Below, in pieces: positions 36,175-54,868 of a DNA stretch of 64,000 nt (position 1 is its first letter; each line of letters begins with the position of its first letter). Origin of the DNA: Bacteroides sp. GTDB taxonomy: Bacteria > Bacillota > Clostridia > Oscillospirales > Acutalibacteraceae. The position numbers and the translations under genes are program-made. Location: contig JAMPEQ010000005.1 in the NCBI GenBank assembly GCA_023665085.1, positions 62,001-126,000 of the forward strand, read 5' to 3'. The notes under the pieces are model-generated. The model was not told the DNA's origin. It made no database searches and saw only the letters and a list, made by a program, of their open reading frames with translations.

Positions 36175-36176
36175 AG

Positions 36177-38182: not shown

Positions 38183-38194
38183 TATATTAAGTAT

Positions 38195-38231
38195 AAATGC
38201 CCGAAGGCTGTTGACACCTTCGGGCATTTCT
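38195..38231. terminator. Terminator after the DUF218 gene
   Basis: Perfect 13-bp stem AAATGCCCGAAGG/CCTTCGGGCATTT with a 9-nt loop. Probably bidirectional with the convergent response regulator gene. Confidence 0.88.
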
Positions 38232-38312
38232 TTGACTTGTTCATGGGATAGCTGTATTAACATTTACTGATGAACAGAGTGTTTTATACAAGTACATTTC
38301 TGCAATATTATA

Positions 38313-39005
38313 TTATTTAAATTTGTATCCTCTGCCCCATACGGTTTTTATATAATCCGATTGTGGATCAGCCTCCTTTAGCTTATCTCTGATGCGATTG
38401 ATGTGAACAGTCAGCGTTGATGTGTCACCCAATGAGTCGTATCCCCACACTATTTCAAAAAGCTGATTTTTTGTAAAAATCTGTTCAGGCTTTTCTGCAA
38501 GAAGGCAGAGAACTTCAAATTCTTTTCTCGTCAGCTGAATTTCTTTACCGCAGGAAAAGGCTTCACCGGTCTCTTTGTTAAGCCTAAGAGTGTCGATTTC
38601 GATAATATTGCTGTCGGAATTGCTGTCGGTGACCTTTGTCAGTCTTTCGTATCGGCTTATATGTGCCTTAACTCTTGCCACCAGCTCACCCGGTGAAAAA
38701 GGCTTGACAATATAATCGTCTGCGCCAAAACCGAGTCCGCTGATTTTATCATTTTCTTCTTTTTTAGCACTTATAAGCAGAATCGGAATATCCTTTTTCT
38801 CTCTGATTTTTTTGCAGATTTCAAAGCCGTCCATTGAGGGAAGCATTATGTCAAGCAGAATTATATCAAATTCTTTTGACAAGGCTTTTTCAAGTCCCTC
38901 TCTGCCGTCAGTTGAATAATCGACCGAGAATCCGTCTGCCTCGAGATAATCTTTTTCAAGATGTAAAATGTTTTCATCATCTTCAATAATCAGTATTTTC
39001 TTCAT
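38313..39005 (-). CDS. OmpR/PhoB-family response regulator
   Basis: 230 aa. Receiver domain with acidic pocket IEDDEN, phosphoacceptor Asp in IILLDIMLPSMDG, and Lys in DYIVKPFSPGEL. C-terminal winged helix with QLTRKEFEVLCLLAEKPEQI and LTVHINRIRDKLKEAD. It overlaps the sensor kinase gene by 23 bp. Targets unknown; the divergent VTC-CotH cluster is the nearest candidate. Confidence 0.93.
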   Translation of the reverse strand: MKKILIIEDDENILHLEKDYLEADGFSVDYSTDGREGLEKALSKEFDIILLDIMLPSMDGFEICKKIREKKDIPILLISAKKEENDKISGLGFGADDYIVKPFSPGELVARVKAHISRYERLTKVTDSNSDSNIIEIDTLRLNKETGEAFSCGKEIQLTRKEFEVLCLLAEKPEQIFTKNQLFEIVWGYDSLGDTSTLTVHINRIRDKLKEADPQSDYIKTVWGRGYKFK

Positions 39006-40527
39006 TTTCTACCATCCTTTTCGGCATTGAAATAAATATTGAAAGTCCGCTTCCGCTTCTGCTGGTTGCCCAGATTGTACCGCCGTGCAGTTCTATAATC
39101 TGACGGCATACTGCAAGTCCTATGCCTGAGCCGTTTGCTACTTTTGTTCTTGCGGGATCTGTGCGGTACATTACATCAAAAATTTTAGGCAGGCTCTGCT
39201 TATCAACGCCTATGCCGTTATCGGTAATTTCAATAATTACCGAACGCTCATATTCGTTCAGTGCCATATAAATACTTCCTTTAATTCCGTCCCTTGCATA
39301 TTTAATTGAGTTGGAAATAATGTTGCTTATTACTCTTTCAAATCTGTCAGTGTCAACATCAATAGCAGTATTATCACTGCAGTGGCAGGCATAGGTAAAA
39401 TCAAAATCTGCTGCATCAAGCATACTTTTTATTTCCATTGCGCCGTCTTCAAAAAATTCCTTGGCATTGACTGTATTCTTTTCGAGCGCAAGCCCGTTTA
39501 ATTCAAGCTTTGAAATCATCAGCAAATCGTCAAGTATCTTTTCTGTGCTGTTAATTGATTCGCAGATAGTGTTAATATATTTCTGCTGCTTTTCAGGAGT
39601 GTTAGCAATGCCGTCACGCAGTCCTTCTGCATAGCCTTTTACTGAAGTCAGCGGAGTTCTGAGATCATGGGCAATTCCTGCAACAACAACCTGCCTTGCC
39701 TCCTGTGCCTGCTGTTGATTTTCTATAGAGGTTTTAAGTCTTAACCTCATATTGTTAAAGCTGTCAACAGTTTGACCAAGCTCGTTGGTTGAGTCATAAT
39801 CTATCTCATAATCTAAATTGCCCCGCGCAATTTCCTCTGCTCCGCGTGAAATCTTCTTTATCGGCTTAACAATTGTCTGAGATGTGATAAAGGATATTGC
39901 ACCAATAGTTATAATAAACAGCAGTGCAATTACCAGAGCAACAAGACCTGTTCTGCCAGCAAGAACAGAGGTAAGGTTTTGTGGTGAGGTCCTTTTGTCA
40001 GCATCATTTACCACATAATCATCATTAACAATAATTATCATATATTTTGTACTTCCTGATGATGCGTTGCTGACTATTACAAGTCCGTCATCGCCGAAAT
40101 AGTTAAGATTTTTTCCGCATTCGATTGTCACAAGCTCGTTTGCCTTTTTTATAATATCAACATTGCTGTCGGTAGAATAAAAGGGCTGTGAGTTTTGCTC
40201 AATGTAAATGAAGCTGTTGAATTTTTCAAGGGGTGAAACGAAATCCTTGATTTTTTCAAGTTTTTTTTCATTTTTCTCTTTTCCTGTAAGCTCTGATGTA
40301 ATGCTCTGTAAGGTCTGACTCCACTGAATTTGATTTACAGTAGAATAATTGTTGGTTGTTACAGACGAAAAGTTAAAATATGATGATACAGTTTGCACAA
40401 ATACAGTAGAAAAGCTTGCTATTATTATAATAGGTATAAATATTCCAAGAAGAGATGTTATAACAATTCGTGTATTAATTTTTAAATTTTTTGAGCTTCG
40501 CCTTTTACTTTCGTTTTTCTTACACAT
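38983..40527 (-). CDS. Membrane sensor histidine kinase
   Basis: 514 aa. Two transmembrane segments (about 22-45 and about 195-220) flank an extracytoplasmic sensor domain. Then HAMP (IVKPIKKISRGAEEIARGNL), HisKA with the phospho-His in VAGIAHDLRTPLTSVKGYAE, and HATPase with N box ISNIISNSIKYA, ITDNGIGVDKQ and NGSGIGLAVCRQIIELHGG. Overlaps the TetR stop by 8 bp (ATGTGTAA). Signal unknown. Confidence 0.93.
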   Translation of the reverse strand: MCKKNESKRRSSKNLKINTRIVITSLLGIFIPIIIIASFSTVFVQTVSSYFNFSSVTTNNYSTVNQIQWSQTLQSITSELTGKEKNEKKLEKIKDFVSPLEKFNSFIYIEQNSQPFYSTDSNVDIIKKANELVTIECGKNLNYFGDDGLVIVSNASSGSTKYMIIIVNDDYVVNDADKRTSPQNLTSVLAGRTGLVALVIALLFIITIGAISFITSQTIVKPIKKISRGAEEIARGNLDYEIDYDSTNELGQTVDSFNNMRLRLKTSIENQQQAQEARQVVVAGIAHDLRTPLTSVKGYAEGLRDGIANTPEKQQKYINTICESINSTEKILDDLLMISKLELNGLALEKNTVNAKEFFEDGAMEIKSMLDAADFDFTYACHCSDNTAIDVDTDRFERVISNIISNSIKYARDGIKGSIYMALNEYERSVIIEITDNGIGVDKQSLPKIFDVMYRTDPARTKVANGSGIGLAVCRQIIELHGGTIWATSRSGSGLSIFISMPKRMVENEENTDY

Positions 40528-41137
40528 TAGCTTTATCTCTTTTTTCCTTTATAAACTGTTCGCCAAGCTCCATAAGCTTTGTCATATGAAGGGTGGTAAA
40601 GGTTTTGCATTTTTCATCAATATCATCAACATTGTGCATAACATAGTATTTTATAAGACCTGTCATTCCGCAGATAATGTATTCCATCTGAAAATCATCA
40701 AGCTGGGCAATGCTGTCTCTGATATAATCAATTGAACGCTTTACTACGTTTGTTATCTTTGATGTGAGAATATCGGCACTGGTGTCGTTAAGCAAAATGT
40801 AATAATGCTCTTTTTCGCTGTCAACTGCCTTAATGCCCTGAGAAATAATAGATGCAACTCCGTCCATGGTAAAATCATTTCTTGTTACCATTCGAAGCTG
40901 TCTGCCGACATTAAAAAACAGGGTGCGCATTAAATCATCACATTGCTTGTTGAGAAGATCATACTTGTCTGTATAATGCAGATAAAATGTGTTTCTGCTG
41001 ATTACAGCCCTGTCTGTGATATCCTTAACGGTAATATTTTCAAAGCCTTTTTCACGTACCAGCGAGTAAAATGCATTTTTTATGGCATTTTGTGTTCTGA
41101 TAATTCGCAAATCCTGAGTGCCGTCTTTTTTAGTCAT
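40520..41137 (-). CDS. TetR/AcrR-family regulator
   Basis: 205 aa from the ATG at 41137, behind GAGGGGGG; the longer frame adds 19 residues upstream of that site. HTH: AIKNAFYSLVREKGFENITV and DITDRAVISRNTFYLHYTDK. The C-terminal domain looks like the TetR_C_7/8 type. First gene of TetR-kinase-regulator, divergent from the VTC-CotH cluster, so it may control both. A TetR gene co-transcribed with a two-component system is uncommon. Confidence 0.88.
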   Translation of the reverse strand: MTKKDGTQDLRIIRTQNAIKNAFYSLVREKGFENITVKDITDRAVISRNTFYLHYTDKYDLLNKQCDDLMRTLFFNVGRQLRMVTRNDFTMDGVASIISQGIKAVDSEKEHYYILLNDTSADILTSKITNVVKRSIDYIRDSIAQLDDFQMEYIICGMTGLIKYYVMHNVDDIDEKCKTFTTLHMTKLMELGEQFIKEKRDKANV

Positions 41138-41480
41138 ATTTTTACCCCCCTCAGTAAAGCATGAACGCTTATTGCTAAAATTTATTTTATTCAACTAACT
41201 TAGCACCTGTTCATTAAATTACTTTTGTTAATTATAGCACTAAAATTTTGTATTTTCAATAATATAAAAGCATATAAAAATAATAGACTGTTTTTGTATA
41301 CTAGTACATTATTTATTAAAAATAAATATAAATTGTGATATATTTGAATATCTGTAAATTAAATACAATCAGTTAATCAATTTTATACAAAATTTATAAT
41401 TTATAGTCAAAATTTGATTGACTTGTCGATTATTTTTAAGTATACTTAACTTGATATAATATTTTTTTGGAGGTACAGCT
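41138..41480. promoter_or_regulatory. Divergent regulatory region with palindrome over the VTC promoter
   Basis: 343-bp AT-rich gap. For the plus strand: TTGACT (41418-41423), 17-bp spacer, TATACT (41441-41446). A perfect 14-bp palindrome TTAAGTATACTTAA (41436-41449) covers the -10 box, a likely operator for the TetR protein or the response regulator. I see no gene in the gap. Confidence 0.55.
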
Positions 41481-42263
41481 TTGGCTATAGCTACATTTAA
41501 GCGTTATGAGAAAAAATATCTCATAACCAAAGAAAAGCTAGACCAAATACTGCCCTCTCTGCTGGAGTATATGGAGCTTGATCCGTTTTGTCTTAACGGC
41601 AATGAATACAGGATTTACAGCATTTATTATGACACAGATAACCATGATGTTATCAGGCAGAATTCATCAGGTCCTGTGTATAAGGAAAAAATGCGAATAC
41701 GCTCCTATTATGACCGAAAAGATCCTGACGATAAAATCTTTATGGAAATAAAGAAAAAAAGTGAAGGTCAGGGAAATAAACGCAGAATTAAGCTGAAGAT
41801 AAAGGAAATAGAGCCTTTTGTTAATGAAGGCATACTTCCCGAAACAAAGGATTATCTGTCAGCTCAGGTTGCGAAGGAGCTTGCCTATTATCTGTCAAAA
41901 AACAAGGTGCACCCCGCACTTTATGTTCAGTATGACAGGCTTGCACTTTTCGGCAAAGAGGACAAAAATTTCAGAATGACCTTTGACAGAAATGTCAGAA
42001 CGCGAAGGTCAAATTTTGTATTTGGCGAAAGCGATGAGGATGAATTACTTCTGCCCGGAGGCGAATATATTATGGAAATTAAAATTCTCGGTGCAATGCC
42101 TCTATGGCTTACAAGAATTTTAAGTGAAAATGATTTGTTCAGCCACGGATTTTCAAAATACGGCGTTAAGTATAAACGTGATGCGGCAGAGCATAAGCTT
42201 GATTATTATATGTATGATAATCAGGGAAACCGTGTTGATTTTGATTATTTTAAACAATTTTAA
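41481..42263 (+). CDS. VTC-domain (polyphosphate polymerase-like) protein
   Basis: 260 aa, TTG start behind GGAGGTACAG. The VTC triphosphate-tunnel pattern is clear: FKRYEKKYLI, YSIYYDTDN, KEKMRIRSYY, FMEIKKKSEGQGNKRRIKLK, LYVQYDRLAL, MTFDRNVRTR and YIMEIKILGAMPLW. The basic and acidic residues that line the tunnel in yeast Vtc4 have counterparts here. Unlike Vtc proteins it has no SPX or membrane domain; the next gene may supply the membrane part. Polyphosphate synthesis is the family expectation, not proven for such bacterial proteins. Confidence 0.85.
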   Translation: MAIATFKRYEKKYLITKEKLDQILPSLLEYMELDPFCLNGNEYRIYSIYYDTDNHDVIRQNSSGPVYKEKMRIRSYYDRKDPDDKIFMEIKKKSEGQGNKRRIKLKIKEIEPFVNEGILPETKDYLSAQVAKELAYYLSKNKVHPALYVQYDRLALFGKEDKNFRMTFDRNVRTRRSNFVFGESDEDELLLPGGEYIMEIKILGAMPLWLTRILSENDLFSHGFSKYGVKYKRDAAEHKLDYYMYDNQGNRVDFDYFKQF

Positions 42264-42275
42264 GGAGAGTACATA

Positions 42276-42977
42276 ATGCAAGATTTTTTATACATGCTCA
42301 CATCAGGTGAGTCTGCAACATTAGATGTTAGAGGCGTGCTTACAACACTTTTGTCAGCCGCTGTAATTGGACTGGTTATCAGTCTTGTTTATTTGTTCAC
42401 CCACAAAAAAGAGGGCTACAGCCAGGCTTTCTGCGTAGCACTTATTCTGCTTGCACCAATCGTTGGTATGGTTATTCTTGTAATCGGTAACAACGTTGCA
42501 ACCGCATTCAGCCTTGCAGGTGCATTTGCGCTTGTTCGTTTCCGTAGTGCGCCCGGCGATCCAAAGGATATTGCCTTTGTATTTCTCAGCGTAACAATGG
42601 GACTTACATGCGGTCTCGGTTACTGGATATGGGCAGCTCTCGCAACCGTTGTACTTTGTGTAATCATTCTTGTTCTGCATTTTGTAAATTTCGGCGAAAA
42701 AAAGGGCGACAACTATGTACTTAAGATAACTGTACCTGAAACACTTAATTATGTAGGTGCATTTGACGAATGCCTTAATAAATACTGCAACAGATTTAAG
42801 CTTTCAAGAGTAAAGAGTGTTGACTTTGGTGCTCTTTTTGAGCTTAGTTTTGATATCAGCATGAAGGATTCTAAGCAGATGAGAGAAATGCTTGATGATG
42901 TGAGAGCAATGAACGGAAATCTCAAAATAATGCTTTCAACGCCTGAAAATGCTGTTAAAAGCTTCCATTTCCAATAA
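42276..42977 (+). CDS. DUF4956 membrane protein
   Basis: 233 aa. About four transmembrane segments (25-42, 50-70, 72-92 and 110-140) with the conserved phrase VATAFSLAGAFALVRFRSAP followed by GDPKDIAFVFLSVTMGLTCG, then a soluble ferredoxin-like C-terminal domain (about 148-233). ATG behind AAGGAGAG, 12 bp after the VTC gene. DUF4956 and VTC genes occur together in many bacteria, so it is probably the membrane partner of the VTC protein. Confidence 0.85.
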   Translation: MQDFLYMLTSGESATLDVRGVLTTLLSAAVIGLVISLVYLFTHKKEGYSQAFCVALILLAPIVGMVILVIGNNVATAFSLAGAFALVRFRSAPGDPKDIAFVFLSVTMGLTCGLGYWIWAALATVVLCVIILVLHFVNFGEKKGDNYVLKITVPETLNYVGAFDECLNKYCNRFKLSRVKSVDFGALFELSFDISMKDSKQMREMLDDVRAMNGNLKIMLSTPENAVKSFHFQ

Positions 42978-42984
42978 AAAGAAT

Positions 42985-43009
42985 GAGGGAACGCTGTGTG
43001 CGTTCCCTC
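42985..43009 (+). terminator. Hairpin after DUF4956 gene
   Basis: Perfect 10-bp stem GAGGGAACGC/GCGTTCCCTC with a 5-nt loop and only a weak T-run. A second inverted repeat, TTTTAAAACAC/GTGTTTTAAAA, follows at 43030-43063. These may partly separate expression of the two halves of the cluster. Confidence 0.6.
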
Positions 43010-43152
43010 GACGTGCCTTTTAGAAGAATTTTTAAAACACAATATGTCGAGTGTGTTTTAAAATATTTTCTATATCTAGTATTATAATTTATATATTAAG
43101 GCATAATTTTGAATATTACTAATTTATACAATTTAGCACAGGAGTTTTGAAC

Positions 43153-44775
43153 ATGAAACTGAAAAAGGCAATATGCGTTATGCTTGCGGCAGCAATGATA
43201 ACAACAAGCATGGCAGCCTGCAGCAAGGAAAAGCCACAGGAGGCTGAGGCAACCGTAGTGGTAACAGACAAAAGCGGTGATGCTGTTACTACCGATAACG
43301 GAAAGGTTGTGGTGGCTGATAAAAAAACAAGCACCACAAAGGCCGTAGATGCGAAGGAAGTATCATCAACCACGAAAAATGGTGAAACAACTGCTGCAAA
43401 AACAACAGCGAAAACTACAACCCAAAAAGGTGCAAAAACAACTACTAAAAAAGGAAGTGCCACAACTAAAAAGACAGCTGCTAAAACTACTGCCAAGGCA
43501 ACAACAAAAAAACCTGCAGGCAAGCCTGCCTCAACAACAGCACAGGTAGACAGAAATATTTATATCACACTTCAAAAGAATATGTCTGCAACTGTTTCAT
43601 CAAAGATTGATGCCAGCGGTGTTACCGTAACAAACAAATCGGCACAGAACACAATCAGAATTACTAAGCCCGGTGATTACGTTATAAATCAGAATACAGG
43701 CAACGAAGCATGGCACGGACAGATTGTTGTAATGCTGAAGAATACGGAAGAAGCTACATTGAGATTTGAGAATGTAAACATTACCACACAGCAGGCAAGT
43801 GCAATAAAAATCCTTGATGCAAGCATAAACAAGGAAAGAAACTTTATGGAAACTGAGACTGCAACGGGTACTGATGCTGACAACGCATTGAAAAAAGAAA
43901 TTAAGGAAATTTCAAAGCAGAATAAAGCACCGAATGTTTCAATTTCTTTCCCTACAGGCACAACAAGCAGTATTAATTCAGGTGCAAACAGCTATTCGGG
44001 TGTAGTATATAACGAATCAAAGCTTACTTTAAAGGGTAATGGCAAGATAAATGTATCAGCAACAAGAAATGCAAATAATGCAATTTGTTCAACAAAGAGC
44101 ATTACAATAAAAAATGTGGCTGTTTCTCTTTCAACAGCATCAGCAGGCACAGGTGCAGGCAGAGGCATCTTTTCTTTCTCAAAGGTAAATCTTGAAAGCG
44201 GAAGTCTTACTATAGATACAGATGGTGACGGAATCCGCTGTGAATCCTTTAATGTAACAGGCGGTACGGCGGATATTAATTCGCGTTCGTCTGATGGTGT
44301 GGATGCCGATGATGCGATTGTTATTTCAGGCGGAACAGTAACATCAGTTGCAGTGAAGAAGTCAAGCTATAAGGTAAGACGTGTTAATAATACCGAAAAC
44401 GGACTTACTGTTGACGGCATCAGAAAAGAGAAGGGCGATACCTTTGCAATAAACGGAGGAACAGTCAGAGGCGAAAGCAAGAATATCACTACTGTTCAGC
44501 CGGCATCAAAGCAAGCCAATATTATCTGCCGTTCGGTAAAGGCGTCAAACACAACTGAGTCAAAAAGAGCTTTGCAGTTTACAATTAAAAGCTCCGGCAG
44601 TACAGTTGCTAAATCAACAACAGAATGCATTAAATTTCTGTATTCTTCATCAGGTCTCAGCTCTTCAAAGAAATACAGTGTAACAGGGCATTCAAAGAAT
44701 GTAAGTCAAAATTTCAGCGCAGATGTAAAATTCACAAACAAAGTTGGCGATGCAAGAGTCGTTGCTAACAGATAA
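43153..44775 (+). CDS. Cthe_2159-like carbohydrate-binding lipoprotein
   Basis: 540 aa from the ATG at 43153, 8 nt after AGGAG. Lipoprotein signal MKLKKAICVMLAAAMITTSM with the Cys in MAACS; then a long Thr/Lys linker (about 60-130: repeated TTKK, AKTT); then a beta-solenoid-like domain with DGDGIRCESFNVTGGTADIN and SDGVDADDAIVISGGTV, the pattern of the Cthe_2159/DUF4353 family, whose founder binds cellulose and acid sugars. Likely attached to the membrane and reaching through the wall. It lies 15 bp before the CotH gene. Confidence 0.8.
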   Translation: MKLKKAICVMLAAAMITTSMAACSKEKPQEAEATVVVTDKSGDAVTTDNGKVVVADKKTSTTKAVDAKEVSSTTKNGETTAAKTTAKTTTQKGAKTTTKKGSATTKKTAAKTTAKATTKKPAGKPASTTAQVDRNIYITLQKNMSATVSSKIDASGVTVTNKSAQNTIRITKPGDYVINQNTGNEAWHGQIVVMLKNTEEATLRFENVNITTQQASAIKILDASINKERNFMETETATGTDADNALKKEIKEISKQNKAPNVSISFPTGTTSSINSGANSYSGVVYNESKLTLKGNGKINVSATRNANNAICSTKSITIKNVAVSLSTASAGTGAGRGIFSFSKVNLESGSLTIDTDGDGIRCESFNVTGGTADINSRSSDGVDADDAIVISGGTVTSVAVKKSSYKVRRVNNTENGLTVDGIRKEKGDTFAINGGTVRGESKNITTVQPASKQANIICRSVKASNTTESKRALQFTIKSSGSTVAKSTTECIKFLYSSSGLSSSKKYSVTGHSKNVSQNFSADVKFTNKVGDARVVANR

Positions 44776-44789
44776 GCGAGGATAAACAA

Positions 44790-47700
44790 ATGAAAAAAAG
44801 CATGAAAAAATCCATAGCACTTCTGCTGGCATTGTTGATGCTGGTTTCGACCTTTGCAATAGGCTCATTTACAGCATCAGCTGCATCTGCACCTGTTGAC
44901 GTTGAAAGTGCCAAAGTTGCTGTATGGGCAGATCCTGAAAATGTTTTAAATCAGGCTAAGGTTGAGGCATTTTCTCTTACCGGTACTGCCCAGGACACTC
45001 TGGCAGTTCTCGGCTCAGTTCAGCCGTTTAAGAGAAGCTCCAGCAGCGGTTCATCACTAGGCGGATGGGGCAGCGTAGGCGGCTCTTCCTCTGACAGCGG
45101 TAACTATTACTGGTTCTTTCCTTCAAATGCAGATTTAACAAGCCTTAAAATCTGGTTTAAAGAAACTGACACACTAACTATTGATTCAACATCAATTACA
45201 AGTGGTGTTGCTACAGATGTGTTCAAAGAGCTGAACGAGGGCGGTGTTTCAAAAACATACACTGTTAAGCTCAATAATACCAGTTATACTGTAACTGCTA
45301 TGAAGAGCGGTGACGTTGGTACAGTTTATATTGACACTAAATCAGGCTCACTGAAAACAATTACCAGCAGCAGTGACCATTCAGCATGGGAAGCAGGCAC
45401 AATAATGGTAGTTCAGCCTGACGGTACTGTTGATTATATGGGCGTTATGAGCAAAATGAGCGGACGAGGTAATGGTACATGGGACACAAGCGGTAAGAAA
45501 AATCCGTATAATGTTAAGCTTGAAAAGTCCACTTCACTTCTCGGTATGGGAAAGGCAAAGAAATGGTGTCTGCTGGCAAATGATGTTGACAAATCACTTG
45601 TTAAAAACCAGCTTACATATGATTTTGCAGATTATATCGGCATTAAATACCAGCCACACTGCAAGCCTGTTGATTTGTATGTAAACCAGCAGTATCTCGG
45701 TTCTTATCAGCTGTCAGAAAAGGTTGAAATTAAATCAAACAGAGTAAATATAAGCGATGCTTACGAAAATCTTGAAATTGCAAACGGAACTGTTGATTCT
45801 GCAACAGGTGCAATTGTTCCTGCTGATTTTGCTGCAGCGAAAACGGCAGTTGAAACTGTAAACAAAACTACTATAGGTTCAATTACAAAAAGAGATGTTA
45901 CAGGTCATACAGTAGGTGCATATAAATATTCTAAGATTGATGATTCAGCCATTGATACTACAGGCGGATATCTGTATGAGCTTGAAATAAGCAACCGCTG
46001 GGTAAATGAAAATGCAGGTTTCTGTGCATATAACCGACAGGGCTGGGTGCTTAAGAGTGCTGATTATGCATCTGAAAATATGGTAAAATACAGCTATAAT
46101 CTTCTTTATGCCCTTGGTGCTTCTGTATACAATAGCGGTGTAGTTCCAAGTACAACTACCACAACCTCATGTCCTAAAACAGCTACAAAATATTCGACAA
46201 CTTTATATGGAACAAACAGTATAACAAACCCTGCTCCTGCAGCAGAATATCAGGGCAAAAAATGGAGTGATCTTCTTGATGCCGATTCAGCAGTAAGATA
46301 TTACTGGACACAGGAGTTCTTCAAGAATATGGACTCCTCAACCTCATCAACATATTTCTACAAAGATTCAGATTCTGTTGACAGCAAGCTTTATGCCGGA
46401 CCTATGTGGGATATGGATAACTCTATGGGAACTATTGACAGCAAAGATACAGAACGCTGGGGATACAGCTATGATACTTCAACCGGATGGTATACAAAGA
46501 ACGCACGTATCTACCGTTGGAGATGTGATGATTCAACTATGTCATATTCAACTGACGATCAGTCACCTTTGAACTTCTATGCGGCACTTGCCACAAACTG
46601 CACAGATTTCTGGCAGATGGCAGAAAAGTATTATTATGCATATATTTCTCCTGCTGCAGATATTCTTCTCGGCAAGGCAGAGGATACTACAGGCAAGCTT
46701 CACAGCATTGCATACTATGTAAATACAATAAACAAAAGTGCACAGATGGATGCACTCCGTCATGATACAACCTACAGCGCAGAGGGATATATAGATAAGC
46801 TCAGCACATGGACTTCTGAACGTCAGACATGGATAAACGGCCAGATTAAGCCGGTTGATTTTAAAGACCTGGGTTTGTTTGTTGATACTATTCCTGCTCA
46901 GACATATACAGGAAAAGCGCTTACTCCGGCTGTTACAGTAAATATTTATGAAAATGGTGCTGACGTTGCTTTAATTCCTAATGTGGATTATACCTTAAGC
47001 TACAGCAACAATATAGATGCAGGTACAGCAAGTGTAACAATTAACGGTGCAGGTTTGTACACAGGCTCAGTTACCAAGACTTTCCGTATAAATCCTGCAG
47101 ATCTCGGCACAAATCACACTGCAGAGATAGAAGCTCTTTCATATATCGATACGGAGCTTAATCCTATACTTACCAATAATACAACAGGCACAGGCTACAG
47201 CTCCGGTGTTTCTTATCAGTGGTATAGAAACGGTGAGCCGATAGCTGATGCAGTTAATGAAAAATATTTGACAACATCAGAGGACGTTGGTGCAAAGCTT
47301 ACATGTGTTATTACAGGTGACGGCACAAATATTACAGGCTCTGTAACATCAAATGAATGTGAAGTTCTCACAGGTGAAAAGCCAACAGGCTATTCAAGAA
47401 CTATTGCATCATGGAATTATAACTACACTGCTGATAATACATTGCTTGTAAATGGTGACACAAGTGGAAATGGTTTCTATTATGTTGCTACAGGCGGTGA
47501 GAATCAGGCGACATCGAATCTTTATGCAAGTGTAAATGCAACAGATCAGGCAAAACTTAAATGGTCAGGCACGGCAGATTTGTTTACTAACAATGCGATA
47601 GCAGACCAAGCTCCAGTAATGGGAACATCAAAGACCGACATGCTTGCATGGGGCACATACCCGTATTTTGAAACAGTAGTTTCAACAGCAGGCTATGAAA

Positions 47701-50069
47701 ACATTAAATTCAGTGCTAAACTGGGCGGAACAAAGAAGGGACCGAGAGACTGGAAGCTTCAGTACAGCCTTGACGGTGTAAATTATACTGATGTTGACGG
47801 CACTGTTTATTCAATCAAAGCAAATAAGTCAATGGAGCTTGCATTTGACAATGTTATGCTTCCTGATGAATGTAAGAATCAGAAAGAAGTACACATTAGA
47901 ATGGTTGTTGCAAATGATGTAGCAATTAATAATGTAAACACAATTGTTAATCAGCTCAGCGGTGACGCTGCTGTAAACGATATTGCAGTAACAGGAACAT
48001 CTCTCAGCGTTGTTACAGCTCTTTATGAGCCGACAATCGTTGCCGAAATCGGTGAAACTGTATTCAGTGACAGCAGCATTGAAATTGTTGATAACAACGG
48101 CGGTGCAGATCTTTACTACAGTGTAAACGGAAGTGAGCCTGTTCTTTATACAGGCAAGATAAATCCGTTCAATGCAAAAACCTCTAAGGTTGGTGACACT
48201 GCAGAAATTACTGCATATGCTTCATTTAACGATATCAAGAGTGCTGAGACTACTGTTACAGTGACTTTCGGCGGTGTAGATATCAACAGCTTTGTTTATA
48301 CAGATTATTCAACAAATGTAACATCAGGTGCAGTACAGTCAACAGGCGGAACATATGGTGAAAGCGGCAAGATGACTGCATACACTGACGGTGTTTCACA
48401 GTACGTTCCTTTGTGGAGAGATGATCATTCTTCTTTCTGCGTTGCTCCGGATGATGGTGCAAAGTGGTCTGAAAATTCAGGCTTTACATACAAGGTTAGC
48501 ACAGCAGGCTATGAAAATGTAAACTTCAGCTGCATGGCTTATACTACTGCACAAGGTCCGAAGAGTATTACCCTTCAGTACAGTCTTGACGGCAAGGAGT
48601 TTACAAATATTCAGTCAGATATTCCTCTTACTGCAAACGGTGCACTTGAACAGCTCTTACTTACAGCAGAGCTTCCTGCAGCCTGCGATAATCAGTCTGT
48701 ACTTTATCTCAGACTTGCAACAACAGAAAATTTATCTTTCAGCGGAAATCTTCTTCACAATGTTGACGCTAAAGGTAATCTCTATGTAAACAATGTTATC
48801 GTTGCAGGTGATGATAACGGCTCATTTAAGATGCCGTATACAAATAAGTCTACAAATTACTTTGGTGCAACAGGAACAGTTAAATATATCAGCCCGGACA
48901 ATCTTCCTATGCAGTATATTGTAACTGACAGCAAGGGACAGATTGTGCTTTCAGGTGCATATGCTGAAACAGGTATTCAGCTCTCTTCAGCAAAATATTT
49001 TGACAAAACTGCTCAGGAGGCTTATACTGTTCTTATAGAGGCTGTTGATGATGAAGAGACAAGTGTTCCTAATACTGCAACCTATTACTATAAGGGTGAC
49101 AGCGTAGTTAAATTTAACTACAACGACAAATTAAATCTCTTTGCAAATTATGTTTCATCAGACAGTCTTTCAGTTAAGAATACAAGCGGTGCAAACAGCG
49201 GAACTCTTTCAATGTATCCTAACGGTGAAATTGCTACAGAGCTCAGCTATACAGAAAAATATGGCGTAAGAGTGTCAAAAACGCTGTTCAATAGCTTTGC
49301 TGCCAGCAAGGATCTTGATAATCCTGAGGGCAACGGATTCTGGCTTATTGAAACAAGCACTCTAGGCTATAGCAACCTTACTCTTAACCTTGAACAGCTC
49401 AGCTCAAACCAAGGTCCTAGAGACTGGGGTATTGCTTACAGCACAGACGGCAAGAATTATACTTATGTTGAAAACTCAAATGCAAGAGCAATCAGCAATG
49501 ATGCTGCCTCATCAACAGTTGAAACATATGGAAATCTTCCTCTTCCGAGTGAATGCGATAATCAGGAAAAGCTTTATGTAAAAGTATTTATCAACGGCGG
49601 CGAGAGTGTTGACCGTACAGAGCTTGAGCTTACAACAAAGGGTAACACAGGTATAAATTCTATTGAAATCAGCGGTACTCCTGCTGCAAGAGCAGTTAAC
49701 TTTAATATTGTTCTTCCAAAGGCAAGCAACGGAGAGCTTCCTTTAACAGCAGTAAGCAATGCGGATATTTATGTTGACGGCAGACTTGCAGGCACAGCTG
49801 ATGAGAACGGAAATGTAAGTGTAAGACTTGTTCTTGGAGCACCTTCAAAGATTGATATTAAATATCAGAATGCTGTAAGAACAGTAAATATCACTGCTGA
49901 TGAAAATACAACATCACAGGAGCTTGCACTTCAGATATTTGATGCAAACAACGACGGCTATGTAAATGCCAAAGACTTTGCAATAATTAAAAACGACAGT
50001 AAGTATGACAGCTACAGATCATATTTCCAGAATTATATTAACCAGACTGCTGAAGAAGCATACAAATAA
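44790..50069 (+). CDS. Giant secreted CotH-kinase surface protein with half-dockerin tail
   Basis: 1759 aa. Signal peptide (1-32). CotH kinase domain (about 200-640): SGRGNGTW, KNPYNVKLEKSTSLLGMGKA, KKWCLLANDVDKSLVKNQL, KPVDLYVNQQYLGSYQLSEK, and MWDMDNS with Asp541/Asp543 as the expected metal-binding pair. Then an MBG-like repeat (about 690-770), an Ig-like domain with SYQWYRNGEPI, and three related beta-sandwich repeats marked by GPRDWKLQYSLDGVNY, GPKSITLQYSLDGKEF and GPRDWGIAYSTDGKNY. It ends in a single EF-hand/dockerin-like loop DANNDGYVNAKDFAIIKN (from Asp1718). CotH kinases phosphorylate secreted proteins, known for spore coat proteins; the target here is unknown. Confidence 0.85.
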   Translation: MKKSMKKSIALLLALLMLVSTFAIGSFTASAASAPVDVESAKVAVWADPENVLNQAKVEAFSLTGTAQDTLAVLGSVQPFKRSSSSGSSLGGWGSVGGSSSDSGNYYWFFPSNADLTSLKIWFKETDTLTIDSTSITSGVATDVFKELNEGGVSKTYTVKLNNTSYTVTAMKSGDVGTVYIDTKSGSLKTITSSSDHSAWEAGTIMVVQPDGTVDYMGVMSKMSGRGNGTWDTSGKKNPYNVKLEKSTSLLGMGKAKKWCLLANDVDKSLVKNQLTYDFADYIGIKYQPHCKPVDLYVNQQYLGSYQLSEKVEIKSNRVNISDAYENLEIANGTVDSATGAIVPADFAAAKTAVETVNKTTIGSITKRDVTGHTVGAYKYSKIDDSAIDTTGGYLYELEISNRWVNENAGFCAYNRQGWVLKSADYASENMVKYSYNLLYALGASVYNSGVVPSTTTTTSCPKTATKYSTTLYGTNSITNPAPAAEYQGKKWSDLLDADSAVRYYWTQEFFKNMDSSTSSTYFYKDSDSVDSKLYAGPMWDMDNSMGTIDSKDTERWGYSYDTSTGWYTKNARIYRWRCDDSTMSYSTDDQSPLNFYAALATNCTDFWQMAEKYYYAYISPAADILLGKAEDTTGKLHSIAYYVNTINKSAQMDALRHDTTYSAEGYIDKLSTWTSERQTWINGQIKPVDFKDLGLFVDTIPAQTYTGKALTPAVTVNIYENGADVALIPNVDYTLSYSNNIDAGTASVTINGAGLYTGSVTKTFRINPADLGTNHTAEIEALSYIDTELNPILTNNTTGTGYSSGVSYQWYRNGEPIADAVNEKYLTTSEDVGAKLTCVITGDGTNITGSVTSNECEVLTGEKPTGYSRTIASWNYNYTADNTLLVNGDTSGNGFYYVATGGENQATSNLYASVNATDQAKLKWSGTADLFTNNAIADQAPVMGTSKTDMLAWGTYPYFETVVSTAGYENIKFSAKLGGTKKGPRDWKLQYSLDGVNYTDVDGTVYSIKANKSMELAFDNVMLPDECKNQKEVHIRMVVANDVAINNVNTIVNQLSGDAAVNDIAVTGTSLSVVTALYEPTIVAEIGETVFSDSSIEIVDNNGGADLYYSVNGSEPVLYTGKINPFNAKTSKVGDTAEITAYASFNDIKSAETTVTVTFGGVDINSFVYTDYSTNVTSGAVQSTGGTYGESGKMTAYTDGVSQYVPLWRDDHSSFCVAPDDGAKWSENSGFTYKVSTAGYENVNFSCMAYTTAQGPKSITLQYSLDGKEFTNIQSDIPLTANGALEQLLLTAELPAACDNQSVLYLRLATTENLSFSGNLLHNVDAKGNLYVNNVIVAGDDNGSFKMPYTNKSTNYFGATGTVKYISPDNLPMQYIVTDSKGQIVLSGAYAETGIQLSSAKYFDKTAQEAYTVLIEAVDDEETSVPNTATYYYKGDSVVKFNYNDKLNLFANYVSSDSLSVKNTSGANSGTLSMYPNGEIATELSYTEKYGVRVSKTLFNSFAASKDLDNPEGNGFWLIETSTLGYSNLTLNLEQLSSNQGPRDWGIAYSTDGKNYTYVENSNARAISNDAASSTVETYGNLPLPSECDNQEKLYVKVFINGGESVDRTELELTTKGNTGINSIEISGTPAARAVNFNIVLPKASNGELPLTAVSNADIYVDGRLAGTADENGNVSVRLVLGAPSKIDIKYQNAVRTVNITADENTTSQELALQIFDANNDGYVNAKDFAIIKNDSKYDSYRSYFQNYINQTAEEAYK

Positions 50070-50098
50070 GCGATAAAGCTTAGGATAGAGAGGGCAAA

Positions 50099-51262
50099 AT
50101 GAAAAAGCGTATAATTTCGCTAATAATTGTTATTGCATTGATTATATCTTCATTAGCCCTCTCTATTACTGCGTTTGCAAGCTCCAAAGAGCTTAAGCTG
50201 AACATTATGGCATCAACTATAATGAATGGTATGGATGATTTGGAGTGGTTTTATTTCACGCCTGAAGAGTCGGGAGAATATTCGCTTCTTTCCTATAATG
50301 ATTATCCAAGCCATGCATATCTGTACACACGTGAAAAGCAGGCTAACGGTGAGATTGACCTTGTTAAGCATGCTTATTCAAATAAGGATGAAAATTATGC
50401 AGATAACGGACACAATTCACGTCAGTTCTGCTTGACGCATCATCTTGACGCAGGCGTAACTTATTATTATGCTGTCGGATGGTATTTATCTGATACCAGC
50501 ACATCTTCGATGCAGGTTATGCTGAGAAATGATTATTATGATATAGACAGAATAGAAAGTATCGAGCTGGGCAAGCCGGTTGCGCTGGAAATTTACAATG
50601 ACGGCATATGGGCAAGAGATGCTGATAATCAAAGGTATTACAGATACTCTGTGTCAAAGGTGCTTGCAAATCTCAGTGTTACAATTAATTTTACCGACGG
50701 AACATCTATCACAGCTCCTTATGCTGAAAGAATAGGTGATTTTTCGGTGTCATATATTGATAATCAGTATGATAAGCACTGGTATCCTGATTATGATGAT
50801 AATTATAACGGCAATATACTCACCATAAAAATTCTTGATAAGACAGCCAGTGTAAGTGTGCCTATTATTGCCGGCACAAGATATTATACAAAGGGCACAG
50901 CAGTTGATCTGTCAGGCAATCCGATTAAAAATGCAAATGTTGCAGTGAACAGAATAAATACAACGGTTACAGATGAAAACGGAAATTTCAGCCTTTATCT
51001 TCCTTCAGGTATCAATAATATCGAAATCAGCACAGATCATTCAATTACGCGAAAAATTCAGCTTACAGTGTCTTTAAATAAGGATAATAATGATTTTACT
51101 GATACTCCTTTTGAAGTATGCAATTGTGATTATGTTGATGATGATGTAATAAATGCCAAGGATTTTGCATTTATTAAAAAATCTGTTTCTAATGCCGAAA
51201 AGGACAGAGCCTTGTCTGAATTCGCGAATGCAATAAATTTTACCGAGAGTGATTATAAATAA
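50099..51262 (+). CDS. Secreted protein with carboxypeptidase-regulatory-like domain and dockerin-like tail
   Basis: 387 aa. Signal peptide (SLIIVIALIISSLALSITAF, about 6-25). The middle resembles bacterial extracellular beta domains (WFYFTPEESGEYSLLSYNDY). About 275-345 is a CarboxypepD_reg-like fold: AVDLSGNPIKNANVAV, then TVTDENGNFSLYLPSGINNI. The C-terminal NAKDFAFIKKSVSNAEKDRA matches the tail of the preceding CotH protein. It starts 29 bp after it, behind GAGAGGG, and is probably the last gene of the cluster. Function unknown. Confidence 0.75.
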   Translation: MKKRIISLIIVIALIISSLALSITAFASSKELKLNIMASTIMNGMDDLEWFYFTPEESGEYSLLSYNDYPSHAYLYTREKQANGEIDLVKHAYSNKDENYADNGHNSRQFCLTHHLDAGVTYYYAVGWYLSDTSTSSMQVMLRNDYYDIDRIESIELGKPVALEIYNDGIWARDADNQRYYRYSVSKVLANLSVTINFTDGTSITAPYAERIGDFSVSYIDNQYDKHWYPDYDDNYNGNILTIKILDKTASVSVPIIAGTRYYTKGTAVDLSGNPIKNANVAVNRINTTVTDENGNFSLYLPSGINNIEISTDHSITRKIQLTVSLNKDNNDFTDTPFEVCNCDYVDDDVINAKDFAFIKKSVSNAEKDRALSEFANAINFTESDYK

Positions 51263-51279
51263 ATAGTTTATTTAAATTA

Positions 51280-51388
51280 TGTCTTTTTCCGTTATGCGTC
51301 GTTATCGGCAAAATTCCGCTCGGTCACATATCCACATATGCTCCCGTCGACGAAATTTTACCAAAGCCTAGCCTAACGAAAAAATCCA
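51280..51388. repeat. Dispersed imperfect palindromic repeat, copy 2
   Basis: Same order of phrases as 30309-30417: TATGCGTCGTTAT, CGCTCGGTCACATA, TATGCTCCCGTCG, AAAGCCTAGCCTAA. Part of a 419-bp gap without genes. Confidence 0.8.
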
Positions 51389-51429
51389 AAAATTTAAAGG
51401 CATTCTGGATATTTGCAACATATAAGAAA

Positions 51430-51595
51430 AAGTTCCCTGTGCCGCAGTGCGCATTGTGTGCGCGGCACACGCTTAAAGGGGGTTATAAGGGGGAATTAGC
51501 GCAGGCTATCCCCCTGATTCGTTTTCTTGGTATCGTTCTTTGGCGACACAAAAGAATGATACGACCGTGCGTCAGCACAAATATATTTATAAAAA
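51430..51595. repeat. Second repeat module and GTGCGC-core hairpin
   Basis: Contains CCTGTGCCGCAGTGCGCATT and GTGTGCGCGGCACAC (a hairpin like that at 7453-7506), then GGGGGAATTAGCGCAGGCTA, TTTTCTTGGTATCGTTCTTT and ACCGTGCGTCAGCACAAATA. The latter parts are the reverse complement of the module at 30490-30660, and the last phrase also occurs at 6928. Confidence 0.75.
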
Positions 51596-51639
51596 TAACA
51601 ATAATCCAATAAGCAAGGCTTATGCAGATAAACAATTTT

Positions 51640-51674
51640 TTATAAAAAATAGGAGCTGTGAAAACAGCTCCTTG
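51640..51674 (-). terminator. Terminator after pyrG
   Basis: On the minus strand AGGAGCTG pairs with CAGCTCCT around TTTTCA, then ATTTTTTAT. Confidence 0.88.
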
Positions 51675-51681
51675 TTTCTTT

Positions 51682-53292
51682 TTATTTTGCTTGTTTGTTT
51701 TTTAATGCGGCAGTTACAAAACCTCGGAAAAGAGGATGCGGTTTATTTGGTCTGGACTTAAATTCAGGATGAAACTGACCTGCCACAAACCATGGATGCG
51801 ACGGAATTTCCACCATTTCAACAATATGATTATCAGGTGATGTGCCTGCAAAAATCATTCCGCCTGCCAGCAGCTCGTTTCTGTAGTCGTTGTTAACCTC
51901 ATATCTGTGTCTGTGACGCTCATAAATCATTGATGCACCATAAAGTTCAAATGCCTTTGATTCAGGATTTACAGTACACGGATATTTACCCAGTCGCATA
52001 GTTCCGCCCATGTCTTCAACATTTTTCTGTTCGGGAAGAATGTCAATAACCGGATATGGAGTTTCAGGATTAATTTCAGCTGAGTTCGCATCCTTTAATC
52101 CAAGAACATTTCTGGCAAATTCGATAATTGCTATCTGCATGCCGAGGCAAATACCAAGATAGGGGATATTATTTTCTCTTGCGTACTGACAGGCTCTTAT
52201 TTTGCCTTCTATACCGCGTGAACCAAAGCCTCCCGGCACAAGTATACCATCCATATCACCAAGAATTTCAGCAACGTCTGCATCACCCTCAAGACTTTCG
52301 CTGTCAATCCATTTGATGTCAACTGCACTTTGTGTTGATATTCCGCCATGCTTCAGTGCCTCGTTGACAGAAATGTAAGAATCGTGCAGTTCAACGTATT
52401 TTCCAACCATAGCAATTTTAACCGTTTGTTTAGGATTGCGAAGAGCGTGAAGCATATTTTCCCAGTCCTCTAAATCAGGCTCTTTGCATTCAAGACCAAG
52501 CTTTTTAATAACAATTTCGTCCATTTTCTGCTCCTTGAGCATCATGGGAACAGCGTAGAGAATATCGCAGTTGTTATTTTCTATAACGCATTCGGGTTCA
52601 ACATTGCAGAAAAGTGAAATTTTATTTTTTATATCATCTGTAAGGGGATGTTCTGTTCGGCATACAATAATGTCAGGTCTGATACCTATAGAAAGCATTT
52701 CCTTAACAGAGTGTTGTGTCGGCTTTGATTTAAGCTCGTCAGATGCAGCCAAATACGGAACAAGTGTTACATGGATAAACAAACAGTTTTCTCGGCCCAC
52801 ATCAAGTGCAAACTGGCGAATTGCCTCTAAAAACGGCTGCGATTCAATATCACCTACCGTTCCGCCGATTTCTACAAAGCACACCTCTGCACCCGTATCT
52901 GCATTTTTTGCAATAGAACGCTTAATTTCGTTTGTAACATGAGGAATAATTTGAACTGTCTGACCGCCGTATATGCCCTTTCGCTCGTCACCGATAACCT
53001 TCCAAAAAACTCTTCCGCTGGTGAGATTAGAGTTTTGTGACAGACTTTCGTCAATAAATCTTTCGTAGTGGCCAAGATCCAAATCAGTTTCAGCACCGTC
53101 ATCAGTAACAAATACCTCTCCATGCTGTACAGGGTTCATTGTACCGGGATCAACATTAAGATACGGATCAAGTTTTTGTACCGTAACCTTGATGCCCCTT
53201 GCCTTAAGCAGTCTGCCAAGAGAAGCTGCTGTTATACCCTTGCCAAGACCTGAAACAACTCCGCCCGTGATAAAAATATACTTTGTGTTCAT
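51682..53292 (-). CDS. pyrG: CTP synthase
   Basis: Aminates UTP to CTP with glutamine. 536 aa. Synthase domain with [20 protein letters not shown] and [20 protein letters not shown]; glutaminase domain with [12 protein letters not shown], the catalytic Cys in [16 protein letters not shown], and the His/Glu in [12 protein letters not shown] behind AAAGGAGGAT. The 100-bp leader carries a hairpin. Confidence 0.97.
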
Positions 53293-53322
53293 AATGATCC
53301 TCCTTTAAGCTTTAAATAGTAT

Positions 53323-53347
53323 AGGGTGTGCTCTAACGGCACACCCT
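53323..53347 (-). promoter_or_regulatory. Hairpin in the pyrG leader
   Basis: AGGGTGTGC and GCACACCCT form a perfect 9-bp stem with a 7-nt loop, 30 bp before the pyrG start. It lacks a T-run on the minus strand, so it is a weak terminator of the DUF1846 gene or a pyrG control element. Reiterative CTP-sensing attenuation is known for pyrG in Firmicutes, but its initiation sequence cannot be confirmed here. Confidence 0.45.
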
Positions 53348-53392
53348 GCATTTTTGTACATGTTGCATTCGCAGTGCCCGGCAAAACAAGAA

Positions 53393-54868
53393 TCAAATTC
53401 TTTTTTTATCAGTTATTGCGGTACAGCTCACTCTGATACCAAGCTTTTTCAGCACGTTTTCATCAACGTGTGACAGCAGGGTGGTTGAATGCATCTCACA
53501 TTTATTGAGTTTTGAAAGCTGTTCGAGTGCCAGCCTTGCGTTTTCATCGTTAACTGCAGAAACAGAGAGGGCAATTAAAACCTCATCAGTATGCAGTCTG
53601 GGGTTTTTGCTGTTAAGATGATTTGTTTTAAGCTCTTGTATAGGCTTAATTACCTCAGGAGATATAAGAAGTATCTCCTTGTCAATTCCGCCAAGATATT
53701 TGAGTGCATTGAGCAGTGTAGCTGATGCACAGCCGAGTAAATCAGATGTTTTGCCTGTAATTATTGTTCCGTCATTCAGTTCAATTGCAGCGGCAGGCTT
53801 TTCAGTTCTTTCAGCCAGCTCAACTGCTGTTTTTGTGCATATTCTGTCGTCAACATCAAGTCCTGCATTATTCATAAGCAGTTCAAGCTTGAATATTTCA
53901 TCTTTGTTGTTCTTGCCTCTGAGATTTTCACAGCAGGCAGAGAAATATCTTCTTATAATTTCCTGATTTGATGCATCGCATACTGCATCATTGTCAACAA
54001 TACAGTTGCCCGCCATATTGACACCCATGTCAGTAGGTGATTTATAAGGGCATGTGCCGTAAATTTTGTCAAAGGTAGCTTTCAAGACAGGGAATATTTC
54101 AACATCTCTGTTGTAGTTTACAGTGGTTTTTCCGTATGCTTCAAGATGCCATGGATCAATCATGTTTACGTCGTTGAGATCAGCAGTTGCAGCCTCGTAA
54201 GCAATGTTTACAGGGTGCTTGAGTGCAATATTCCAGATAGGGAATGTTTCAAACTTAGCATAACCGGCTTTAATTCCTCTTTTGTTTTCGTGATAAAGCT
54301 GGGAAAGGCAGGTTGCCATTTTTCCGCTTCCGGGACCAGGTGCAGTGATAACTACAAGCTCCCTTGTAGTTTCAATATAATCGTTTTTGCCGTAGCCCTC
54401 ATCACTGACAATGTGGCTTATGCTGGCAGGATAACCGTCAATTACATAGTGACGGTAGCAGGGAATTTCTGCTTTTTTCAATCTTTGCTCAAAGGCAACT
54501 ACTTTTGGTGCAGACACATATTTTGTGAGCACAACACTGCCAACCATCAGCCCCTTGCTTCTGAAAGCGTCAATAAGTCTAAATACATCAACGTCATATG
54601 TAATGCCAAGGTCACCGCGGACCTTGTTTTTTTCAATATCTTCTGCACTGATAACTATTACTATTTCTGCCTGATCCTTTAACTGCATAAGCATCTGGAG
54701 CTTGCTGTCAGGCTGAAAACCCGGCAGAACTCTTGATGCGTGGTAGTCATCAAACAGCTTTCCTCCAAATTCAAGGTACAGCTTTCCTCCGAATTCATTA
54801 ATTCTTTCTTTAATTCTGCTTGACTGCATCTGCAGATATTTGTCATTGTCAAAACCGATTTTAAACAT
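53393..54868 (-). CDS. DUF1846 family protein
   Basis: 491 aa. Starts FKIGFDNDKYLQMQSSRIKE; further on YLEFGGKLFDDYHASRVLPG, ITAPGPGSGKMATCLSQLYH, and NAGLDVDDRICTKTAVELAE, all characteristic of DUF1846. Length is typical. The APGPGSGK phrase looks like a nucleotide-binding loop. Structures of the family exist, but I know of no established reaction. Single gene behind GGGAGAAAT. Confidence 0.88.
   Translation of the reverse strand: MFKIGFDNDKYLQMQSSRIKERINEFGGKLYLEFGGKLFDDYHASRVLPGFQPDSKLQMLMQLKDQAEIVIVISAEDIEKNKVRGDLGITYDVDVFRLIDAFRSKGLMVGSVVLTKYVSAPKVVAFEQRLKKAEIPCYRHYVIDGYPASISHIVSDEGYGKNDYIETTRELVVITAPGPGSGKMATCLSQLYHENKRGIKAGYAKFETFPIWNIALKHPVNIAYEAATADLNDVNMIDPWHLEAYGKTTVNYNRDVEIFPVLKATFDKIYGTCPYKSPTDMGVNMAGNCIVDNDAVCDASNQEIIRRYFSACCENLRGKNNKDEIFKLELLMNNAGLDVDDRICTKTAVELAERTEKPAAAIELNDGTIITGKTSDLLGCASATLLNALKYLGGIDKEILLISPEVIKPIQELKTNHLNSKNPRLHTDEVLIALSVSAVNDENARLALEQLSKLNKCEMHSTTLLSHVDENVLKKLGIRVSCTAITDKKRI

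Follow-up and report, generated by a model that had tools for sequence, protein, structure and literature searches.

The VTC complex of yeast couples polyphosphate synthesis to transit of the product through the membrane, according to the accessible part of PMC9911596. Pel loci of streptococci, clostridia and bifidobacteria have been described as having accessory genes for CotH, a polyphosphate polymerase and DUF4956 beside them, and the excerpt of that report proposes that phosphorylation by CotH may regulate Pel synthesis (PMC7112168). Similarly, a chitin-synthase-like gene accompanies VTC and CotH in the NELoc-2 locus of Clostridium perfringens (PMC2879425, in part), whose VTC and CotH genes reappear under newer names in an excerpt of PMC11677781. 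Here we describe a related group of five genes at 41481-51262 of a 64,000-nucleotide stretch (the window) of contig JAMPEQ010000005.1, assembly GCA_023665085.1. They encode a VTC-domain protein, a DUF4956 membrane protein, a lipoprotein with a Cthe_2159 domain, a large CotH-like protein and a second secreted-type protein of 387 amino acids (aa). The host is a gut-type bacterium. We favour, with rather less than even confidence, a surface-directed phosphate-polymer module, in which a polymer would be synthesized in the cytosol and delivered through the envelope to a dedicated surface partner. The support is at the level of sequence, and comprises the families present, the tunnel residues, the constant VTC-DUF4956 pairing, export-type N-termini and a rule of partner choice; from these we infer that the polymer may be polyphosphate, that it would be exported and that the surface proteins would act on or hold it.

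The locus shares with yeast VTC (Vtc4; 3g3q, 8i6v, 7ytj) the tunnel family, seven basic residues and a membrane partner. Unlike in yeast, the polymerase and its membrane counterpart are encoded separately, no SPX domain was matched in the Pfam scan of the window proteins, secreted partners are added and the DUF4956 protein is MgtC-like. The same three families lie adjacent in the Gram-positive Pel accessory group (PMC7112168, as far as the excerpt goes), whereas the window has no pel genes in flanks of 32.6-54.9 kb (38.3-54.9 kb by Pfam, the remainder by reading), an additional Cthe_2159 lipoprotein, a CotH of 1759 aa with a dockerin-like end, and a VTC protein of the Cthe_2159-linked branch described below. 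In NELoc-2, each VTC gene is followed by a gene for a 222-226-aa membrane protein, labelled tubulin/FtsZ there and putatively DUF4956; species and context differ from those of the window, and the passage on NELoc-2 in PMC2879425 contains no Cthe_2159 protein.

Conservation was followed in two samples. A DUF4956 scan of named relatives gave 88 loci, of which the best 80 were retained. Close relatives account for 37 of these (L121-L157); their records carry the names Eubacterium sp., Ruminococcaceae, Oscillospiraceae, Clostridium, Clostridiales or uncultured Clostridia and in several cases mention rumen, rabbit or deer. The other 43 are more distant, mostly Paenibacillus, plus Cohnella and Clostridium. 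Labels on the named loci and on the VTC tree come from home-made profile models, whose seeds still include a few wrong-strand open reading frame (ORF) rows. VTC adjoins DUF4956 in 78 of the 80 loci, the exceptions (L137 and L157) starting at a contig end right there. The second sample, an even set of 299 genomes of the phylum with the window's genome included, was searched for each family and yielded VTC in 46 genomes, DUF4956 in 46, CotH in 41 and Cthe_2159 in 34. VTC and DUF4956 occupy the identical 46 genomes, spread over 25 family codes, and 51 of the 54 VTC genes have DUF4956 on the same strand within 700 bases; the other three are a VTC gene with CotH intervening before DUF4956, one at a contig-end start and a short VTC. 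No VTC-DUF4956 fusion was found among the ORFs scanned. At the genome level, 3 of 14 control genomes contain VTC and DUF4956 together (Bacteroides ihuae, Corynebacterium glutamicum and Methanosarcina acetivorans), CotH being present in C. glutamicum, M. acetivorans and B. subtilis and Cthe_2159 in B. ihuae.

The two surface families follow this pair closely. CotH occurs in 37 of the 46 VTC genomes versus 4 of the 253 remaining, and Cthe_2159 in 28 of 46 versus 6 of 253 (four of those six weak or partial); every VTC genome (46/46) has one or both. With relatedness ignored, Fisher p values for VTC are 3e-55 against DUF4956, 3e-34 against CotH and 1e-21 against Cthe_2159. Of the 54 VTC genes, 30 have CotH on their own strand no more than 6 kb away, 13 Cthe_2159 and 2 both (45 in total); nine have neither, one of them with Cthe_2159 on the opposite strand. 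All four families are present in 29 of the 37 close named loci; among the eight incomplete ones, seven are truncated at the edge of a contig and L130 lacks the Cthe_2159 ORF only. Counted within 5 kb, 31 of these 37 have both partners, three Cthe_2159 alone, one CotH alone and two neither. The 43 distant loci contain Cthe_2159 in 35 cases, CotH in none and neither partner in eight, as judged with the home-made models. The outer genes are less constant: the 387-aa protein has a match in 10 of the 37 close loci (one a 75-aa piece, many loci ending before this point) and the TetR-type regulator likewise in 10, with relatives in three further loci of the phylum sample. That the 387-aa protein, TetR and the two-component system vary would fit adjacency by chance or recent shuffling, yet the same neighbourhood in many families, the Fisher values and the branch structure of VTC contradict that explanation, which we regard as having next to no probability; the neighbourhood is far beyond chance.

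A tree of 64 VTC proteins, from the phylum sample and 11 of the 80 named loci, separates two branches; it was built by a quick procedure, has long branches and carries no support values other than those of the Shimodaira-Hasegawa-like approximate likelihood ratio test (SH-aLRT). In the Cthe_2159-linked branch (n=28), the partner is Cthe_2159 in 20 cases, both in six and CotH in two, and in the CotH-linked branch (n=36) it is CotH in 28, Cthe_2159 in one and neither in seven. The tree requires no fewer than three changes of partner. More than one VTC match was found in seven genomes, four of which (G022, G105, G106 and G189) hold both branches, each copy lying by its own partner type. The window VTC and its relatives belong to the Cthe_2159-linked branch. 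Thus, the core of the locus is VTC-DUF4956-Cthe_2159, and CotH, which a preliminary description of the window had placed at the centre, looks like an addition of the window's lineage. In one sub-branch of the VTC tree (L069, L072, L099, L101 and L106), secreted-type neighbours with lamin-tail or leucine-rich-repeat domains were seen, two by scanning and the others by similarity.

The VTC protein is polyphosphate-polymerase-like in sequence. The window sequence by itself gave no match among solved structures, while a profile of 40 VTC proteins, picked from the 54 found, matched yeast Vtc4 3g3q with E 3.6e-20 and also the VTC complexes 8i6v and 7ytj. Residues aligned to Vtc4 K200, R264, R266, K281, K294, R361 and R373 are kept in the window protein, and the tunnel residues are invariant or near-invariant across the 40 aligned proteins; we take K200, K281, K294, R361 and R373 to be tunnel residues of Vtc4. 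A Vtc4 R264A/R266A/E426N mutant is given in the accessible part of PMC9911596 as an impaired or inactive yeast VTC. With regard to E426, E199 of the bacterial proteins is invariant in the 40-protein alignment and lies outside the stretch aligned to Vtc4. Polyphosphate kinases (PPK) are of a different fold family from VTC, and no match to PPK1 or PPK2 was found in the host genome (99.94% complete), which leaves VTC as its sole polyphosphate polymerase candidate among the families searched. The window enzyme may be read as a maker of inorganic polyphosphate. VTC as a replacement of PPK1 was also considered and was rejected, since PPK1 occurs in 12 of the 46 VTC genomes and 30 of the 253 others (Fisher p 0.019), with no mutual exclusion. 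The preliminary description had listed the five head-to-tail genes and their families and had pictured a VTC enzyme with a likely membrane partner and surface or secreted proteins; coordinates and Pfam agree with the former and the conserved unit with the latter. Of the three outcomes that it named as speaking against its view, two, a neighbourhood not conserved in relatives and a tunnel lacking catalytic residues, are not borne out by the counts above and by the seven Vtc4-matching basic residues.

The membrane protein is less readily assigned to transport. A predicted DUF4956 structure (39 of 53 sequences found; predicted local distance difference test, pLDDT, 86) comprises five N-terminal helices and a C-terminal ferredoxin-like (ACT/PII-like) domain. 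Foldseek returned no match below E 0.001 and none over the full length; many of the 50 matches listed fall on ACT or PII-like domains some 80 residues long, and others belong to elongation factors and similar proteins. A DUF4956 profile matched one of MgtC (29 of 30 fetched proteins) with 97.9% probability and E 6e-13 over 201 columns, the separate membrane and C-terminal parts reaching 81.1% and 94.3%, against at most 9.3% for three reversed and five shuffled controls. The MgtC model PF02308 touched two DUF4956 genes in 119 genomes (E 5e-4 and 8e-4, under its cut-off) and had no match to the window protein at E 0.01. By these profile comparisons, DUF4956 is a distant relative of MgtC/SapB (PF02308), similar in the membrane part and the ACT-like domain; in contrast to MgtC, it has an invariant RFR motif of its own (R88, F89 and R90, placed where a short helix ends), and in the sample it occurs only with VTC. 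Our guess is that the two arginines might line a path for a polyanion. Descent of DUF4956 from a split-off VTC channel was considered and dropped in favour of the MgtC relation, neither a sequence nor a fold match to the yeast channel (7ytj/8i6v) being found among the matches listed.

This relationship, together with the ACT/PII-like fold, fits an intracellular unit in which DUF4956 would be an MgtC-like regulator of VTC, its ACT/PII-like domain responding to nucleotide or phosphate status; the polymer would stay inside, with the surface proteins as co-regulated clients. A histidine kinase and regulator within 5.5 kb in 18 of the 37 close and 34 of the 43 distant loci are also in keeping with it. 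What it leaves unexplained is the presence of CotH and/or Cthe_2159 in every VTC genome, nearly always with export-type N-termini, and the VTC branches that track partner type; we consider it somewhat unlikely. The divergent TetR and two-component genes named in the preliminary description are real, and the two-component system recurs among relatives as counted here. Its gene order is TetR-kinase-regulator in the window and regulator-kinase in Paenibacillus, hence the control genes may have joined the locus repeatedly.

The CotH protein of the window retains the GRGN loop, the catalytic Asp and the WDMD motif, and carries a long insert. We take the catalytic Asp and WD.D to serve as kinase motif residues. 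The Bacillus spore-coat CotH kinase (5jd9/5jda) is of the same Pfam family with the same Asp and WD.D; the window protein differs in its large size, export-type N-terminus and insert, and has Thr where 5jd9 has Asn ahead of a conserved Tyr (NFDGFVHNY). Presumably this catalytic-loop Asn is a metal binder, as in kinases generally. Among 33 CotH proteins of the lineage, the position holds Thr in 27 (window included) and Asn in five, the motif being absent in one. Kinase activity of the window CotH must not be assumed, and the phosphorylation of secreted proteins or glycans proposed in the preliminary description is not supported as it stands. The structure model of the CotH domain is poor (pLDDT 60.8), and the direct profile match to 5jd9 came from the CotH of a relative (L047), not from the window's. 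The host genome has a second, solitary CotH gene encoding 664 aa (L108:8480-10474; G000 C26:215001), again with Thr at the loop Asn position; the surrounding 17.7 kb that were read contain no VTC.

By a simple measure of N-terminal hydrophobicity applied to 54 CotH ORFs, 48 have a strong N-terminal hydrophobic segment; the six without are four full-length spore-type proteins (352-364 aa), an inner-stop piece (G061) and a 186-aa fragment (G245). CotH copies near VTC bear such a segment. The four spore-type genes have no VTC neighbour, while the other 51 CotH matches, both pieces and the weak G176 included, lie within 6 kb of VTC in 33 cases, elsewhere in VTC genomes in 16 and in VTC-less genomes in two. 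VTC-DUF4956 is present in 36 of the 37 genomes with secreted-type CotH. Such an association would be expected if exported polyphosphate were the phosphoryl donor of secreted CotH, there being no ATP outside the cell, although Cthe_2159 replaces CotH through most of one branch, so that the polymer must have a kinase-free use, and the window CotH has the Thr substitution. We know of no phosphoryl-donor preference for secreted VTC-linked CotH, and we think this explanation improbable. A broader version, in which VTC-DUF4956 is a polyphosphate export machine with an MgtC-like gate and the polymer, held by Cthe_2159 lipoproteins, donates phosphoryl groups to secreted CotH kinases or acts as their scaffold, seems to us improbable as well.

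Both the CotH and the 387-aa protein end in one dockerin-like repeat, which the preliminary description overlooked along with the hairpin at 42985-43009. CotH proteins of the lineage retain the repeat at their ends; that of the 387-aa protein was recognized by eye and by alignment of C-terminal ends. Type I dockerins consist of two duplicated calcium-binding repeats. The ends found here are single repeats and not true type I dockerins; Dockerin matches of E 0.002 and 2.9e-4 fall short of the Pfam cut-off. Six cohesin and three dockerin matches above cut-off in the host genome make a cohesin-dockerin surface likely.

The Cthe_2159 namesake binds polygalacturonic acid, a linear polyanion and acidic glycan, according to the part of PMC6712302 seen. 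This binding and the dockerin-like ends would suit contact with exopolysaccharide or plant glycans, where the phosphate polymer or CotH phosphorylation would modify matrix glycans, as proposed for Pel-linked loci; the Pel accessory genes (PMC7112168) and the chitin-synthase-like gene of NELoc-2 (PMC2879425), both from partial texts, point the same way. Recurrent neighbours of the phylum sample were sorted into 24 groups, 10 representatives being Pfam-scanned here and the others scanned earlier or core genes. A family 2 glycosyltransferase (L040, L071 and L103), an MBOAT/DHHW protein (L045, L071 and L103) and a PGA_cap protein (three near-identical loci) recur in three loci each, which indicates a surface-polymer link in part of the CotH branch and was counted for the glycan explanation. 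These neighbours nevertheless stand in a minority of loci, all of the CotH branch except L045, and none of the 10 proteins in the Pfam scan of the window (38.3-54.9 kb) is a glycosyltransferase. Overall, we judge a glycan-modifying role rather unlikely.

Three observations concern the Cthe_2159 proteins themselves. A Lys-rich linker of the lipoprotein was considered as a polymer binder and rejected, as the Lys richness is not conserved and many linkers are more acidic than basic. Two further Cthe_2159 matches lie on other contigs of the host genome (G000 C29:121133 and C30:78018). The Cthe_2159 protein at L066:6879-8399 has, by eye, an N-terminal anchor like the CotH proteins of its VTC branch (e.g. 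L061), as if a surface domain had been swapped.

Taken as a surface-directed phosphate-polymer module, the locus would work as follows. The VTC-DUF4956 core would make inorganic polyphosphate, or a closely similar phosphate chain, from nucleotide at the cytosolic face and pass it to or through the membrane. Each core would be dedicated to a single surface partner, either the Cthe_2159 lipoprotein or a secreted CotH, depending on the branch. The ancestral partner in the window would be the Cthe_2159 lipoprotein, expected to bind the exported polyanion. The large CotH would work on the polymer or together with it, perhaps with its dockerin-like end fixed to a surface that bears cohesins. Several points weigh against this module. 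On the membrane side, DUF4956 appears to resemble MgtC rather than the VTC channel, for which no match was listed; MgtC is, to our knowledge, not known as a polymer channel, and the ACT/PII-like domain in the model points to sensing no less than to transport. On the side of the partners, 8 of the 43 distant named loci have none, 9 of the 54 VTC genes have none on the same strand within 6 kb, and two CotH and one Cthe_2159 neighbours stand in the 'wrong' VTC branch. Further, exopolysaccharide-type genes adjoin some CotH-branch loci, and carbohydrate is the sole ligand of Cthe_2159 proteins known to us.

The features of the locus are collected in Table 1. The five genes are confirmed as head to tail, with intergenic gaps of 12, 169, 14 and 29 bases. 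Family PF14262 is the one called DUF4353 in the preliminary description. ATG starts at 43153 for the lipoprotein gene and 41137 for TetR are likelier than the TTG at 43147 and the listed start, respectively, of the ORF list. The family calls come from a Pfam scan of 10 proteins at 38.3-54.9 kb.

Table 1. Features of the VTC-DUF4956 locus and its surroundings, in window coordinates.
Feature	Position	Strand	Evidence
VTC-domain (triphosphate tunnel) polyphosphate-polymerase-like protein, 260 aa	41481-42263	+	PF09359, E 3e-47, 161.6 bits (cut-off 23)
DUF4956 membrane protein, 233 aa	42276-42977	+	PF16316, E 2.5e-17
Lipoprotein, Cthe_2159 domain downstream of Thr/Lys-rich linker	43153-44775	+	PF14262, E 1.1e-19, 71.2 bits (cut-off 25.8); lipobox Cys
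CotH-like protein, 1759 aa, secreted-type, N-terminal hydrophobic segment	44790-50069	+	PF08757, E 2e-22, 80.5 bits (cut-off 23.8)
CotH kinase-like domain, aa 226-679, long insert; NMDSSTSSTYF catalytic loop, WDMD motif	45465-46826	+	
Single dockerin-like repeat, aa 1705-1735 of CotH protein (DANNDGYVNAKDFAIIK)	49902-49994	+	PF00404 (Dockerin_1), E 0.002, sub-cut-off
Secreted-type protein, 387 aa, CarboxypepD_reg domain and one dockerin-like repeat	50099-51262	+	PF13620, E 2.4e-08
TetR-type regulator, divergent	40520-41194, likely start 41137	-	PF00440, E 2.2e-08
Sensor histidine kinase, divergent side	38983-40527	-	PF02518, PF00512, PF00672
OmpR-type response regulator, divergent side	38313-39005	-	PF00072, PF00486
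GC-rich hairpin, 10 pairs, between DUF4956 and lipoprotein genes	42985-43009		
Promoter-like TTGACT-17-TATACT, 34 bases 5' of VTC start	41418-41446	+	Consensus match only
Terminator-like hairpin between cluster and convergent CTP synthase gene	51651-51672	both	Consensus match

The VTC and DUF4956 genes are spaced from a 4-base overlap to a 44-base gap in the window and the 35 relatives having both, which favours co-transcription. Between the DUF4956 and lipoprotein ORFs of 38 loci, the distance is 43 bases or fewer in 24, greater in 11 and unmeasurable in three. The 70 bases 3' of DUF4956 fold at -15 kcal/mol or lower in 17 of the 38 loci, window included, with differing sequences. These hairpins could set unequal expression, and an RNA processing or attenuation element is possible; an Rfam search of 38000-52000 gave no match. 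Upstream, at 32557-37463, genes named by reading, with no family search, as rsmG, parB-like, parA, parB and serS suggest that the replication origin is probably near the cluster. Convergent CTP synthase (pyrG) and DUF1846 genes lie downstream at 51682-54868.

The preliminary description had considered the joint function undescribed. This stands, no publication on a tested function, on the Cthe_2159 form or on the MgtC relation having been found in the openly accessible journal literature; the grouping itself is in print, VTC-DUF4956-CotH and VTC with CotH appearing in the accessible parts of PMC7112168 and PMC2879425, respectively. Two further papers that name DUF4956 show it, in the portions seen, among expression results only. 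As far as we found, then, the VTC-DUF4956-CotH grouping is already published, and the Cthe_2159 form and the MgtC link are apparently new.

If a phosphate polymer is indeed delivered to surface partners by these loci, they would define a widespread envelope system in the phylum. DUF4956 would gain a function, and Cthe_2159 proteins would be polyphosphate binders, a role beyond plant-wall binding. The phosphate source of secreted bacterial kinases would also become testable. Should VTC-DUF4956 prove to be a polyphosphate export machine, this would explain bacterial protein phosphorylation where ATP is absent, and would provide a mechanism for DUF4956 and perhaps for MgtC.

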